Shown here: piece by piece, positions 3,751 to 12,922 of the stretch
How the letters are laid out: each line of letters opens with the position of its first letter
Position numbering within the stretch: position 1 is the stretch's first letter
Source of the DNA: a bacterium
GTDB taxonomy: Bacteria > NPL-UPA2 > JAUVJM01
Reading direction: 5' to 3'
Assembly (NCBI GenBank): GCA_030606215.1
Contig: JAUWGW010000012.1
Span: 1 to 44,181, forward strand
Length of the DNA stretch: 44,181 bases
Made by a program: the position numbers and the translations under genes
The notes under the pieces: generated by a model
Database searches by the model: none
The model's input: only the letters and a program-made list of their open reading frames with translations
What the model was told of the DNA's origin: nothing

Positions 3751-4041
3751 ATGGAAGTTCTAAAGGGAATACTAAACGAAAGTAAAGACTACTATAAAAA
3801 GGAACAAAAAGAATTAAATAAAGAATTATCTAAATTGCCAAAAGGCAGTATTAAAAAAAGAAAATTTGGCAATGGATTCTACTATTATCTACAACATAGA
3901 GAGGGCGAAAAAGTTATTCATGATTATTTGGGCAAATCTGAACCGAAAGAACTCATCAAAAAAATAAAGAGACGCAAAGCATTAGAAAAGGAATTAAAGA
4001 AAGTCAAGGAATCCCTCAAATTACTTTTAAAAGCAAAATGA
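3751..4041 (+). CDS. small basic protein, likely partner of the nucleotidyltransferase
   Basis: A 96-residue, lysine-rich protein. The N-terminal half is helical and charged, followed by GSIKKRKFGNGFYYYLQHREGEK (about residues 31-53), a small beta unit (YYYLQ..REG.K...Y.G) that recurs in short DNA-associated proteins and antitoxin-like partners, and then a long basic helix (residues 70-96) with coiled-coil character. It overlaps the next gene by four bases (ATGA), starts behind a good GGAG site, and its promoter is embedded in a palindrome. I infer, without proof, that it is the DNA-binding, autoregulating half of a two-gene toxin-antitoxin-like module. The region is visibly more AT-rich than its neighbours, which suggests transfer. 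Confidence 0.7.
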   Translation: MEVLKGILNESKDYYKKEQKELNKELSKLPKGSIKKRKFGNGFYYYLQHREGEKVIHDYLGKSEPKELIKKIKRRKALEKELKKVKESLKLLLKAK

Positions 4042-4724
4042 TAAAAGTTGTAAAAGATATTTTGAAGATTTTTGATGAAAACGAATTATGGGAAGAAGGC
4101 ATTGAATTAATAGGTAGCTGGTGCTTTCTATTGTATCAGAAACATTTTAAAGTAAAAAAATACCCATTGCGAACTACCGATATAGACTTTCTTATTCCTT
4201 TTCCCTATAAAGGGAAAACCAATATAGACCTTACCAAACAATTTGAGCAAATAGGCTTTAGACTAGGTTTTAATAGTGATGGTTCTTTTTATCTCCGGAG
4301 TGCTGAAATAAAAATTGAGTTTTTATCACCTGAAAAAGGGCCTGGAACAGACAAAGCATTTGAAATAAAAAAGCTATCTTTAAAAACAACACCATTACGA
4401 TTTTTAGATATATTATCGAAAGACAAAGTTATTGTAAAAGAAGGCAATTTAGATATTTCTATTCCTTCCCCTCTTAACTTTTGCCTACATAAACTACTTA
4501 TAGCACAACGAAGAAAAAAGGAGCCCAAAAAATTGAATGATATAGAGCAAGCTGTTTATACTCTTGAAGCTGTTGATCTGGAACAGTTTAAAAATGAATA
4601 TGATAAATTATTTAAGAAATCAAAGAGGTATATCATGCGAAGTTTGGAAGAAGCCAGAGAACTAATACCACTTCAAGAGAATATCATAAGCAAAACTATC
4701 ATTACACTACAAAATCAAAAATGA
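4038..4724 (+). CDS. nucleotidyltransferase of the GSU2403/AbiEii-like kind
   Basis: A 228-residue protein with the minimal polymerase-beta nucleotidyltransferase signature: GSW (about residues 26-28) followed by RTTDIDFLIPFP (about 45-56), whose D-x-D would hold the metal ions. The later region (PSPLNFCLHKLLIAQRRKK) resembles the helical part of GSU2403-family proteins. Relatives act as toxin halves of type IV or MNT-type toxin-antitoxin systems or transfer nucleotides to RNA or protein; which applies here is unknown. It is co-translated with the preceding small gene. Its last codons and its stop (TGA, 4722-4724) lie inside the second copy of the TTACACTAC palindrome, so the gene end is part of the repeated module. 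It is AT-rich compared with the flanking housekeeping genes. Confidence 0.75.
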   Translation: MIKVVKDILKIFDENELWEEGIELIGSWCFLLYQKHFKVKKYPLRTTDIDFLIPFPYKGKTNIDLTKQFEQIGFRLGFNSDGSFYLRSAEIKIEFLSPEKGPGTDKAFEIKKLSLKTTPLRFLDILSKDKVIVKEGNLDISIPSPLNFCLHKLLIAQRRKKEPKKLNDIEQAVYTLEAVDLEQFKNEYDKLFKKSKRYIMRSLEEARELIPLQENIISKTIITLQNQK

Positions 4725-4762: not shown

Positions 4763-4819
4763 ATTAAGTATCTCATTTACGCAAGAAAATCTACTGATGA
4801 GGAAGATAAGCAAATTCTC
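4763..4819 (+). pseudogene. N-terminal remnant of a large serine recombinase
   Basis: Read from ATT at 4763 the sequence gives KYLIYARKSTDEEDKQIL, the typical opening of large serine recombinases (Y-x-R-x-S with the catalytic serine, then TDEEDKQ). A fair ribosome site (AGGAG, about 4750-4754) lies upstream, so ATT probably replaces a lost ATG. The match ends at about 4819; the frame then runs through unrelated codons into tRNA-Gln, so only about 19 residues remain. This is a scar of an integrated element next to the 3' end of tRNA-Gln. Too short to be active. Identification rests on recognition of the N-terminal motif only. Confidence 0.6.
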
Positions 4820-4854
4820 TTTTCTATTTCAAAAAAACTGCCTTATGCGATAAC

Positions 4855-4928
4855 TGGCTGGGGCGGGAGGATTCGAACCTCCGATCCAGGCTCCAAAGGC
4901 CTGTGTCTTACCGCTTGACGACGCCCCA
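4855..4928 (-). tRNA. tRNA-Gln (anticodon TTG)
   Basis: A complete 74-nt cloverleaf on the minus strand: acceptor TGGGGCG/CGCCCCA, anticodon stem CAGGC/GCCTG around loop CTTTGGA (anticodon TTG, reads CAA), T-arm GGAGGTTCGAATCCTCC, encoded CCA at the 3' end (4855-4857). It lies four bases after the spoVG stop, so it is probably cut from the ispE-spoVG transcript. In many bacteria ispE is followed by tRNA-Gln and then prs; prs is missing here and the recombinase scar lies in its place. Confidence 0.95.
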
Positions 4929-4932
4929 AACA

Positions 4933-5334
4933 CTATTCTGCGGCTGGCGTTTCTACCGCAGTATCAGCTGATTTCTCCCTTTCATATGCCTCAAGCACAG
5001 CTTTCTGTATGTATTCTCTGGCTTCAGTAGTTATTGGATGAGCAATGTCGCGGTGTTCTTCCTTATTGTTACCGGGTTTCCGGTCTCTGGCAATTCCCTC
5101 TAAGTTTGTCCCACACTGGTTGCAGAATCTGCTGCCCATTACATTTTTATAGTTGCAGCGAGGGCAGTTCTCCCTGAGCTTACGACTCGGCATTGCTACA
5201 AACAACCCATTTCTCCCGTCAATTACTCTCAAATCGCGAACAACAAAAGCGTTGTCAAAAGTCACCGTCGCATACGCTCTGAGCTTCCTATCTTGTTGTT
5301 CTCTCAAATAGATTTTGACTTCAGTGATTTCCAC
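4933..5334 (-). CDS. spoVG: SpoVG regulator with an inserted zinc ribbon
   Basis: SpoVG is a small RNA/DNA-binding regulator. Residues 1-53 ([10 protein letters not shown]... [22 protein letters not shown]) and about 92-118 ([26 protein letters not shown]) are classic SpoVG sequence, normally joined directly. Here about 38 residues separate them, holding CPRC (57-60) and CNQC (71-74), a four-cysteine zinc ribbon, in the loop where ordinary SpoVG has only a few residues. Total length is 133 instead of the usual 85-100. The start overlaps the end of ispE by 14 bases, so translation is coupled; the ispE-spoVG order is also known from Bacillus. The insertion probably adds a nucleic-acid- or protein-binding surface (inference). 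Confidence 0.9.
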
Positions 5335-6277
5335 TTGTTTCCTCCTCTACAAGAAAATTCGTTGATGCGCCGCCCGTTTCCCCTTCCCCTCTATATGTCC
5401 TTGTTATATAGACCCTTTCCTCCTTTCTTCTCATTGAAATCTCTTTTGCAATTCTCTTCGTTTTCTCACTATCGGGAAAAAGTCCGAAGACGACCGGGCC
5501 GCTTCCGCTCATCAACGCGCCAGCTGCCCCCTCTTGCAAAAGTTCCCTTTTAATACTGCCAATGACAGGATACTTCGGCACAACAACTTCCTCAAATCTG
5601 TTGAATAGAAACTTGGAAATCATGCTCAAATCTCCTGACTGAAAAGTGTCTATAATCATTTTAGAGTCCTTCTTACTCCCTGTCAATTCCAAATGCAAAC
5701 TTTCATACGCCCGCTTCGTGGATACAGCAAAAGAGGGAGCAACCAGAATAAGCCGGCTATCCGGCAGTGAAGGAATATCCGTCAGTTCATTCCCCCTTCC
5801 TTTCCCGAGGAGAGTCCCCCCTGAAAAGGCTGAAGAATCATCATTTGCGAGATGAATAAAAAATGCTATATCAGTTCCAACCTTTCCTGACAGATTGAGC
5901 AGACTGTCTTTTGTCAGCCCTAAATTCCAGAGCTGGTTCAAGGCAATAAATGCGCCCGCCGCATTGCTGCTCGCCCCGCCAAGACCTGAGGCAACCGGTA
6001 TTCTCTTCTCTATTTCAACTCTGACACCACACTTAACGCCTGTCTCATCCAGCAAGAGTTGTGCAGCTTTGAAAATGAGATTCCTTTCATCTGTCGGGAC
6101 TGAACTGTCACTACAATATATGTCCACTCCGCTTTTCTTTACTCTGAAAAAAAGTCGGTCATACAGTTCGATTGTCTGCATGACCGTTGTTACTTCGTGG
6201 TAACCGTCGTCCCTTTCCCCTAGAATTTCCAGGAAAAGGTTTATCTTTGCGGGGCAATCTACCCTTATTTCTTCCAT
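5321..6277 (-). CDS. ispE: 4-diphosphocytidyl-2-C-methyl-D-erythritol kinase
   Basis: Phosphorylates the 2-hydroxyl of CDP-methylerythritol with ATP in the non-mevalonate (MEP) route to isoprenoids. A GHMP kinase of 318 residues: N-terminal [22 protein letters not shown] with the substrate-binding lysine and the D-G-Y-H motif, ATP-binding glycine-rich loop [17 protein letters not shown] (about residues 94-110), and C-terminal [18 protein letters not shown] (about 250-267). Length is slightly above the usual 280-300. The ATG (6277) has no Shine-Dalgarno sequence; an array of heptanucleotide repeats ends one base before it, an unusual initiation region. It overlaps spoVG. Confidence 0.95.
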
Positions 6278-9860: not shown

Positions 9861-10862
9861 CTATTCTTGATTCCATATTTTCAGTTTTGAAATTATATGT
9901 TGTTTGATTGCTTTCTCTCTTTCAATTACGAAATTATCAAAATGGTCTTCTTTCATATATTCAAACGCTCTTTCAGTTATCAGGTGCCCTTTTAAAATCG
10001 ACTCAACTTCATCATCATTTCCATATTTGTCCGTCATTTCCGCTATATATTGAGAAGGTTTTTTGTTCTTAATTCTGTTATTTGTTTCGTCCAAGAGTAA
10101 AGTCCTATTTACAACGGAATCCCTGATGTCGTTGAATGTTTCACTTTTTTCTGGGTCCAGTCCCTTCACCTGTTTTGGGAAAATATGATGGTCGTTGATT
10201 TTCTCATTTGAATAATCTCCCGTTCCAACTATTCGCCCCTTATAGAAATCCTTAGCGTCATTGAGTGCTAAAATACAAATGATTGCATTATATCGAGCCG
10301 ATCCCTTCTTTACGCTCTTCAAATCCAATCTATCGACAAATTTTTGATTAGGATTAGCAGGATCTTTTGCAGAGAGTATTGAGACTGGGATTATTCCTGT
10401 TTCTGTCCAATTGGCATTGTCTTCTCTTATTTGCTCCCAAGATTGATGAGTTGAATAATATTTATAAGTTATTGCCTCTTCATAATCTTCATTTAGGATT
10501 TTATTTAAGCTCAGGAAAAACACATAATATGATTGCCTATTTGGGAATGGTTTTTTAGGATTATAAATCGCATAATATAATGAAGCCAATCTCTGTTGAC
10601 CATCAAGTATCGCTTTATCAGGAGTACTTTTCAGCTCCGCTCCCCAAACAGGGTCCCATTCCTCGTTCTGAGCTTCTTCCGGATTTAGCTCCCATAGAAG
10701 AATAAGTCCAGCATAGTAGTTTTGTAATGTTGATTCAATCAAATCACAGACCATACTGGGTTGCCATTCAAATCCTCTTTGAAAATACGGAATCACATAA
10801 GAACCACTGTGTACATTTTTCAGTAAATCTTCCACCTTATCAGTTCCGGGATTTTCAGCCAT
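9861..10862 (-). CDS. DUF262/HNH (GmrSD-like) protein, probably shortened
   Basis: A 333-residue relative of GmrS/GmrD-type nucleases, which use NTP binding by a DUF262 domain and an HNH nuclease against modified DNA. Seen here: IPYFQRGFEW (24-33), the DGQQR NTP-binding signature (87-91), and the HNH core DHHIFPK (224-230). Full-length members are commonly 550-700 residues with a helical region between the domains; here the nuclease part (from about SARYNAII, residue 188) joins almost directly to the end of DUF262. That suggests an in-frame internal deletion, though short natural forms exist. AAGGAGG supports the start. The CTAG restriction-modification pair lies upstream on the same strand, making a small defence patch. 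Confidence 0.8.
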   Translation of the reverse strand: MAENPGTDKVEDLLKNVHSGSYVIPYFQRGFEWQPSMVCDLIESTLQNYYAGLILLWELNPEEAQNEEWDPVWGAELKSTPDKAILDGQQRLASLYYAIYNPKKPFPNRQSYYVFFLSLNKILNEDYEEAITYKYYSTHQSWEQIREDNANWTETGIIPVSILSAKDPANPNQKFVDRLDLKSVKKGSARYNAIICILALNDAKDFYKGRIVGTGDYSNEKINDHHIFPKQVKGLDPEKSETFNDIRDSVVNRTLLLDETNNRIKNKKPSQYIAEMTDKYGNDDEVESILKGHLITERAFEYMKEDHFDNFVIEREKAIKQHIISKLKIWNQE

Positions 10863-11033: not shown

Positions 11034-11618
11034 TTACAATATTTTTCCATAATCCACTTCAATCCCATCGTCGATCTTTCTATAATGGATGGTTTTGGTG
11101 TCTATATGCTCTGGCAATGATGCCTTCACCTCGTAGGTGTATGGTTTTATAGACACAGGAATCTCTCCTATATAACCATCAATTCCTTTTGATTCTTCAT
11201 CAGGCTCGGATAAACGGTAATTCGTTCCTTTTATCTCAGCACCTTTCTTTAGTACTGCTTCTTGGAACCTTAATCCTATAAAGGTTTTCACAATCACCAA
11301 ATCTCTTACCCACTGCTCCACCATTGTTCTGTCAATTTTGCCTATTGTATTCTTTAAATTTTCCAACATCTGCAGTATCTTTTCTGTTGCATTTCTGACT
11401 GCGTCAGGTTTTTGCTCTAAATACCATCCTTCCCATTCAGATAAAGTTTTCCCAGTAAATTCCTGAATAAGGTCACTCATCTGACCGACCACTTTTGGTC
11501 GTGTCCCTTGCGCATATTGATTTGCTAAATTGAGCAATGGAGCCACATACTTGGGAAAGTCGGGAGTTTCTATGTCCAAATATCTTCGGATCTCTTTAAT
11601 ACTAATTTTTACTTTCAT
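11034..11618 (-). CDS. MjaI-family type II restriction endonuclease
   Basis: A 194-residue protein that strongly resembles MjaI of Methanocaldococcus: FPKYVAPLLNLANQYAQGTRPKVVGQMSDLIQEF near the N-terminus and SEPDEESKGIDGYIGEIPVSIKP near the C-terminus (about residues 136-158). The latter is a PD-(D/E)xK-like site, with the aspartate of G-I-D-G and the S-I-K lysine as likely metal and catalytic residues. MjaI cuts CTAG, so this enzyme probably recognises CTAG (inference from family). The ATG overlaps the stop of the methyltransferase gene by four bases, so nuclease synthesis is coupled to and follows modification. Confidence 0.88.
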   Translation of the reverse strand: MKVKISIKEIRRYLDIETPDFPKYVAPLLNLANQYAQGTRPKVVGQMSDLIQEFTGKTLSEWEGWYLEQKPDAVRNATEKILQMLENLKNTIGKIDRTMVEQWVRDLVIVKTFIGLRFQEAVLKKGAEIKGTNYRLSEPDEESKGIDGYIGEIPVSIKPYTYEVKASLPEHIDTKTIHYRKIDDGIEVDYGKIL

Positions 11619-12922
11619 CTTATAACTCCATGAACTATTTGTTGTTGTAAATTTAGAAACTTTGATTTGTACTTGTACTCGAGGGCTGTCTCCACATCAG
11701 CCAACCCATTTTTTATCAAATGGGCATTTAAAAATGTTTTATTCTGCAAATAAAGATAGCAAAGCAAATTATTTTTCTTATCATATTTTGTTGTATCAAA
11801 TTTCAAAAATACCTTTTGCCCACGAGTTTTTTCTCTTAAGAATTGGGTTGCCTCTCCATCCTTTTCTGGTCTTTCTTTCACGCCCCATAACCTAATTTTC
11901 AATCCGTTATTTAACATCAATATTTCTGGAGAAATTATTTCTTTCACAGAATAATATATCTCTCTTGTAAAATGGTGGTTGTCTATTTTTGAACCAAACC
12001 TCATTTTTTTAGGATCGATTTTTTTGTCAAATTTTATCGGGTCTTTAAAATTATAAGGTAGTTTTTTAGCTTCTTCTTTAAAATCTATTTTTCTTTGCTC
12101 TTGCTCAATTATTTCAAAAGATGCATTTTGGGAAACAGTTTTTTGCTTTATCCCAAGTCTCTCTTTTATAATAGGTAGAAAATCCATATTGATTTCATAT
12201 CCAATAGAGTTTCTATTAAGATTTTTAGCTGCTAAAGATGTAGTTCCACTTCCTAAGAAAGGGTCAAGTATTGTATCGCCGACAAAACTAAACATTTTGA
12301 TAAGCCGCTTGGGTAATTCTTCAGGAAACATTGCCAGATGTTTATCTTGCTTTTCACCAGCAAAATTCCAATGTCCAGTAAAATATTGATTCCATTCCTC
12401 CTGCGTTAATCTCGACTGTGATTTAACTTCGTGACTTACTTTTGGCTGATTCCCATATTTTTTGAAAATCAAGATAAATTCATAATCAAGTTTAAGAATC
12501 CCACTTCTTGGATAAGGGAAAGAACCCATTACGGTAGCACCGCCTGTCGTATGGCAAGTAGTGACTTTCTGCCAGATAATAGCTCCCATATAGTCAAAAC
12601 CTGCGCTTTCACAAAACTTAATTATCTCTGTTCTTATTGGAATAACTTTATATCTTCCATAATATACAGAACGAGCAAACTGGTCTCCTATGTTAATACA
12701 CAAACGGCAGCCTTTATGCAGAATCCTATGACATTCATTCCAAGCTAAATTAAGATTGTTAATATACTCCTCATAAGTATCATTGAAACCTATCTGTTTC
12801 CCGTTTCCATAATCTTTTAGCTGCCAATAAGGGGGAGAAGTAATAATAAGATGAACTGATTCATCTGTAACTTCTCTCATGCTCCTGGAATCACCAATAA
12901 TTATTTTGTGCCGGGTCTTCAT
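11615..12922 (-). CDS. N4-cytosine-type DNA methyltransferase fused to an SNase-like domain
   Basis: The 435-residue partner of the MjaI-type nuclease. Residues 1-250 are a beta-class DNA methyltransferase: the catalytic motif IV is TSPPYW (28-33), whose S-P-P-Y form favours N4-cytosine (some N6-adenine enzymes share it), and DPFLGSGTTSLAAKNLNRNSIGYE (about 216-239) binds S-adenosylmethionine. From about residue 315 there is a second domain absent from simple MjaI-type methylases: IRLWGVKERPEKDGEA...FLRE...KVFLKFD...YDKKNNLLCYLYLQNKTFLNAHLIKNGLADV matches the staphylococcal nuclease (thermonuclease) fold. The equivalent of Arg87 in the YGR motif is replaced (KNN), and Asp40 seems lost, so this domain may bind rather than cut. 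A good AAGGTGAG ribosome site precedes the ATG. It is the first gene of the R-M operon. Confidence 0.88.
   Translation of the reverse strand: MKTRHKIIIGDSRSMREVTDESVHLIITSPPYWQLKDYGNGKQIGFNDTYEEYINNLNLAWNECHRILHKGCRLCINIGDQFARSVYYGRYKVIPIRTEIIKFCESAGFDYMGAIIWQKVTTCHTTGGATVMGSFPYPRSGILKLDYEFILIFKKYGNQPKVSHEVKSQSRLTQEEWNQYFTGHWNFAGEKQDKHLAMFPEELPKRLIKMFSFVGDTILDPFLGSGTTSLAAKNLNRNSIGYEINMDFLPIIKERLGIKQKTVSQNASFEIIEQEQRKIDFKEEAKKLPYNFKDPIKFDKKIDPKKMRFGSKIDNHHFTREIYYSVKEIISPEILMLNNGLKIRLWGVKERPEKDGEATQFLREKTRGQKVFLKFDTTKYDKKNNLLCYLYLQNKTFLNAHLIKNGLADVETALEYKYKSKFLNLQQQIVHGVIR

Follow-up and report, generated by a model that had tools for sequence, protein, structure and literature searches.

A zinc ribbon inserted beside the DNA-contact site of SpoVG in at least eight bacterial phyla

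According to the literature searched, the pleiotropic regulator SpoVG has been studied in Firmicutes and Borrelia. In the S. aureus protein, DNA binding requires both K50 and R51, and the sequence preference is set by a run of 6 residues in the helix after this doublet; the basic doublet following MPS is needed for DNA binding in B. burgdorferi as well, and it is the helix in the C-terminal half which sets the DNA sequence preference of the characterised SpoVGs (PMC3688583). The L. monocytogenes protein binds RNAs, and its DNA binding is weak and nonspecific (PMC4959528). In the Firmicutes and Borrelia proteins, small sequence changes close to the site of DNA contact shift the targets.

A conserved signature indel of 32–36 aa in SpoVG was described for all sequenced Planctomycetes and claimed to be unique to them (Gupta, Bhandari & Naushad 2012; PMC3444138). 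The available passages of that paper are silent on zinc or cysteines, whereas the insert described here is a zinc ribbon. Our literature search found no paper in which SpoVG is linked in this sense to a zinc finger or ribbon, and no binding or metal data for any inserted SpoVG.

The inserted ribbon in the window gene

The window (the whole analysed stretch of 44,181 nucleotides) belongs to a 1.52-Mb draft genome in 34 contigs in which no further SpoVG was found. The spoVG ORF at 4933–5334 on the minus strand encodes 133 aa, starts with GTG and has the ribosome-binding site AGGAGG in front. Pfam SpoVG (PF04026) matches residues 1–118 (E 3.5e-30; 104.4 bits against a cut-off of 29.6; positions 1–81 of the 82 in the model), and Zn_Ribbon_1 (PF13240) matches residues 57–78 (E 4.8e-6; 26.6 bits against a cut-off of 25). 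With NCBIfam NF009749 (SpoVG septation regulator) the insert splits the match in two, and the score of 104.3 bits therefore stays just short of the equivalog cut-off (108, curated).

The N-terminal half of the core (residues 1–52, 5179–5334, minus strand, as are the other parts) ends in the basic doublet R51-K52, the counterpart of S. aureus K50-R51 (PMC3688583). The insert starts directly after this doublet and before the specificity helix, lying between MPSRK and HRDIAHP. The gap from MPS to DIAHP comprises 45 residues as against 9 in B. subtilis SpoVG, which makes the insert 36 aa long. It carries the motif C57-P-R-C60-x10-C71-N-Q-C74 in a ribbon of residues 57–78 (5101–5166), followed by a variable linker of residues 79–94 (5053–5100) which is modelled with low confidence. 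The C-terminal half of the core, consisting of the DIAHPI strand and a helix, occupies residues 95–133 (4936–5052). Solved SpoVG structures align to residues 1–53 and 93–121 and skip the part in between.

To follow the cysteines, 164 distinct SpoVGs with the insert were aligned with 50 that lack it. C57, C60, C71 and C74 are in register in all 164 inserted proteins, and the block is missing from all 50 uninserted ones. The spacing between the two knuckles was exactly 10 in each of the 176 parsed inserted loci, and among 80 further loci from the large phylum of genome G280 the exact motif was present in 79 and the four cysteines in all 80. A single inserted SpoVG (L304) has a longer first knuckle, CPHRGC, with the four cysteines retained. 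Conservation extends beyond the cysteines: N64 is kept in 159/164 inserted SpoVGs, K/R63, K/R69 and F/Y70 are also conserved, and a basic residue is found at position 63 in 157, at 69 in 138 and at 67 in 121 of 162 inserted proteins. The doublet itself is R/K at position 51 in 152 and K/R at position 52 in 154 of the 164. The mean net charge of the ribbon across the inserted homologues is +3.1; only two zinc ribbons were found in neighbouring ORFs for a comparison of charge. The insert length varies between 31 and 43 aa, most often being 36, and the variation sits in the linker behind the ribbon. In a diverse alignment of 69 members, every one matches both SpoVG and DZR, and 24 match PF00641.

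A zinc ribbon CPRC...CNQC within the SpoVG loop, as the preliminary description had proposed, is thus borne out by the Pfam matches, the invariant cysteines and the constant spacing. The same description held that an insert absent from every relative would point to error or degeneration; the insert proved to be conserved in all the insert-bearing relatives examined. An assembly error or a decaying gene has nothing in its favour beyond the draft state of the 34-contig genome, and is ruled out to a negligible residual probability, since more than 160 distinct sequences share the insert with invariant cysteines and an open frame.

An AlphaFold model built from 69 sequences, a zinc-free monomer, reproduces the strands of SpoVG together with the ribbon and, at the C terminus, a long helix. 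Its mean pLDDT is 85, with about 90 in the core and the ribbon and about 60 in the linker. The modelled core superimposes on B. subtilis SpoVG (2ia9_F) with Z 13.0 and an rmsd of 1.6 over 87 residues at 47% identity. In the model the core is intact and the ribbon sits at the tip of the hairpin adjoining the basic doublet. The placement of the ribbon relative to bound nucleic acid would be a guess, because the model is a zinc-free monomer. The ribbon itself gave weak structural matches (Foldseek E above 1) to RanBP2/NZF-type fingers, including the ssRNA-bound ZRANB2 F2, and to eL40 ribbons, and a sequence search of solved structures with the ribbon alone found no significant relative.

Distribution, origin and gene context

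Named genomes searched at the protein level yielded 80 loci, almost all of them from Candidatus Omnitrophota, a sample skewed to inserted forms because the query included the ribbon. Named Candidatus Omnitrophota account for 77 sequences with the insert, which is also present in several small phyla separate from them. A domain-wide sample of 290 bacterial genomes was selected independently of the ribbon. SpoVG was present in 141 of them, and about 20 had the long span, distributed over eight phylum-level groups including that of the window. In the window's own small phylum, 7 of the 9 genomes searched have SpoVG, all 7 with a span of insert length. Within the large phylum of G280, which we infer to be Planctomycetota from the size of its genomes and of the group and from the 36-aa insert, 116 of 199 genomes gave a match, the strong ones having the long span in practically every case; the phyla of genomes G095, G132, G258, G082 and G093 showed a long span in the same pattern. 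The ribbon insert is retained with almost no exception in at least eight bacterial phyla and is not unusual for the lineage of the window. Several genomes with the zinc-ribbon form have, elsewhere in the genome, a diverged second SpoVG copy without the insert (L008 and L216–L220).

We judge the window insert to be the indel of Gupta, Bhandari & Naushad, because its 36 aa fall inside the published range and its ribbon recurs in the proteins from the G280 phylum; the match is one of length and ribbon, not residue by residue. The exclusivity for Planctomycetes given in the passages of their paper is wrong, as Omnitrophota, the phylum of the window and several others have the insert. This correction matters for any use of the insert as a taxonomic marker. 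One locus titled 'Planctomycetales bacterium' (L066) has a SpoVG closest to Omnitrophota (79% identity), and its name may be wrong; for this reason it was left out as evidence for Planctomycetes.

Homologues with CxxC-x10-CxxC inserts were gathered and mapped on a SpoVG tree, as had been proposed in advance, using 81 core columns with the insert columns excluded; the inserted forms fit one clade. The inserted and uninserted states change twice on the tree as compared with 33 changes in shuffles, and constraining the inserted forms to one clade gave a log-likelihood 8.9 above that of the free search and was not rejected (AU p 0.69). The simplest reading of these sequences is one ancient insertion followed by inheritance. 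Repeated independent insertion is unnecessary, a single clade fitting better within the weak resolution of 81 columns; this same resolution means that there may have been a second insertion event or a transfer between phyla.

The gene ispE (5321–6277, minus strand; GHMP kinase domains) lies directly upstream and overlaps the start of spoVG by 14 nt, and tRNA-Gln(TTG), found by ARAGORN at 4855–4928 on the minus strand, lies directly downstream. In the inserted loci with enough flank, ispE is upstream of spoVG in 166/174, and tRNA-Gln(TTG) is close downstream in 34 of the 44 loci scanned. The conserved order ispE–spoVG–tRNA-Gln therefore identifies the inserted protein as the orthologue of ordinary SpoVG and rules out a paralogue. 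Across many phyla, the ribbon-bearing form is the ordinary SpoVG, most likely inherited vertically.

Several other features were seen in the window. Beside tRNA-Gln, a short open stretch at 4763–4846 on the plus strand, IKYLIYARKSTDEEDKQILFSISKKLPY, resembles by eye the start of a serine recombinase and may be what is left of an integrated element. Between tRNA-Thr and tRNA-Gln there is a two-gene set (3751–4724, plus strand) with a toxin–antitoxin-like layout, the second gene of which encodes a nucleotidyltransferase (NTP_transf_8, PF12281). At 11034–12922 on the minus strand, an MjaI-type endonuclease (PF09568, E 5e-68) forms a restriction-modification pair with an N6/N4 DNA methylase. At its C terminus the methylase has a staphylococcal-nuclease-like domain (PF00565, E 1e-8), a fusion that to our knowledge is unusual. 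The pair is adjoined by a GmrSD-type (DUF262) protein (9861–10862, minus strand).

Possible role of the ribbon

We lean, by a modest preference, towards a zinc ribbon which was inserted once and which acts as a basic arm beside the doublet and the specificity helix, contacting DNA or RNA and altering affinity or targets. The ribbon would have entered, long ago, the β-hairpin turn between the two conserved SpoVG halves, and its four cysteines probably bind one structural Zn(II). With its positive charge of about +3 and its position next to R51-K52 and the specificity helix, it could form an additional DNA- or RNA-contacting arm. Such an arm might widen the nucleic-acid-binding face and in this way change the affinity or target choice of a standard SpoVG-type regulator. 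That the ribbon could change nucleic-acid specificity had been suggested in the preliminary description; the position of the insert immediately behind the DNA-binding doublet makes this plausible. Contact of the ribbon with nucleic acid is nevertheless only to be presumed from such features, charge by itself being no proof, and ribbons of the NZF/RanBP2 shape elsewhere also bind proteins (ubiquitin, Ran) or act as mere scaffold.

The main rival is a docking surface for a protein partner such as RNA polymerase, an RNase or the ribosome, with the core binding nucleic acid unchanged. The nearest ribbon folds include the ubiquitin- and Ran-binding NZF/RanBP2 fingers, and the core, in which R51-K52 and the specificity helix are preserved, could bind nucleic acid unaided. 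The strongly basic character of the ribbon and its position adjoining the known DNA-binding doublet speak against docking, for which there is also no known partner, and we consider it rather unlikely. A purely structural ribbon, stabilising the hairpin or an oligomer and contacting no ligand, would fit the observation that conservation within the insert is highest at the four cysteines and that the linker varies freely in length and sequence. However, the core folds without a ribbon in all uninserted SpoVGs, and the non-cysteine surface positions K63, N64 and K69 are conserved too, which makes this explanation a distinctly doubtful one.

Sensing of zinc or of the redox state by the CxxC pairs, switching the activity of SpoVG, had also been raised in the preliminary description. 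CxxC motifs can release zinc when oxidised, but loss or substitution of a cysteine was seen in no inserted homologue across many phyla and hundreds of genomes. The gene context is housekeeping, and sensors tend to be patchier. The sensing idea is unsupported, and the retention of the cysteines in every homologue seen lowers its likelihood; we regard it as very improbable. An extension of the nucleic-acid-contacting arm can be put forward tentatively, as a possibility we would not yet favour: the inserted finger might read its own DNA or RNA sequence beside the core helix, making SpoVG a two-reader global regulator, established on the scale of a superphylum by a single insertion and having targets unlike those in Firmicutes and Spirochaetes. 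If this were true, the single insertion would be a marker of shared ancestry for the phyla carrying the ribbon. The carriers include Omnitrophota, in which gene regulation is hardly known.

Comparison with known SpoVGs and zinc ribbons

The SpoVG of the window is a member of the already reported inserted class. Compared with the available passages of PMC3444138, the identity of the insert as a zinc ribbon, its wider phylum range and its site beside the DNA-contact doublet are new.

Zn_Ribbon_1 and DZR modules are usually terminal or free-standing. The window ribbon resembles them (PF13240/PF12773) in the CxxC-x10-CxxC spacing, in the conserved Asn after the second cysteine and in its length of about 22 residues, and differs from the usual modules in being basic and nested within another domain. 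It also shares the C-x2-C-x3-N-x6-C-x2-C spacing of the RanBP2-type finger (ZRANB2). Membership among the RanBP2-type RNA fingers was rejected: spacing and Asn fit, but the SpoVG ribbon is without the Trp at residue 55 and the conserved aromatic at 65–66.

With the SpoVGs of B. subtilis and Staphylococcus (PDB 2IA9, 2I9X, 2I9Z), the window protein shares the core fold (Z 11.6–13.0), the basic doublet and the C-terminal helix. Unlike the window protein, they have a Cys-free MPS–DIAHP loop of 9 residues. Next to the same DNA-contact site, the inserted class carries a whole zinc ribbon, probably placed there once and since retained in at least eight phyla.
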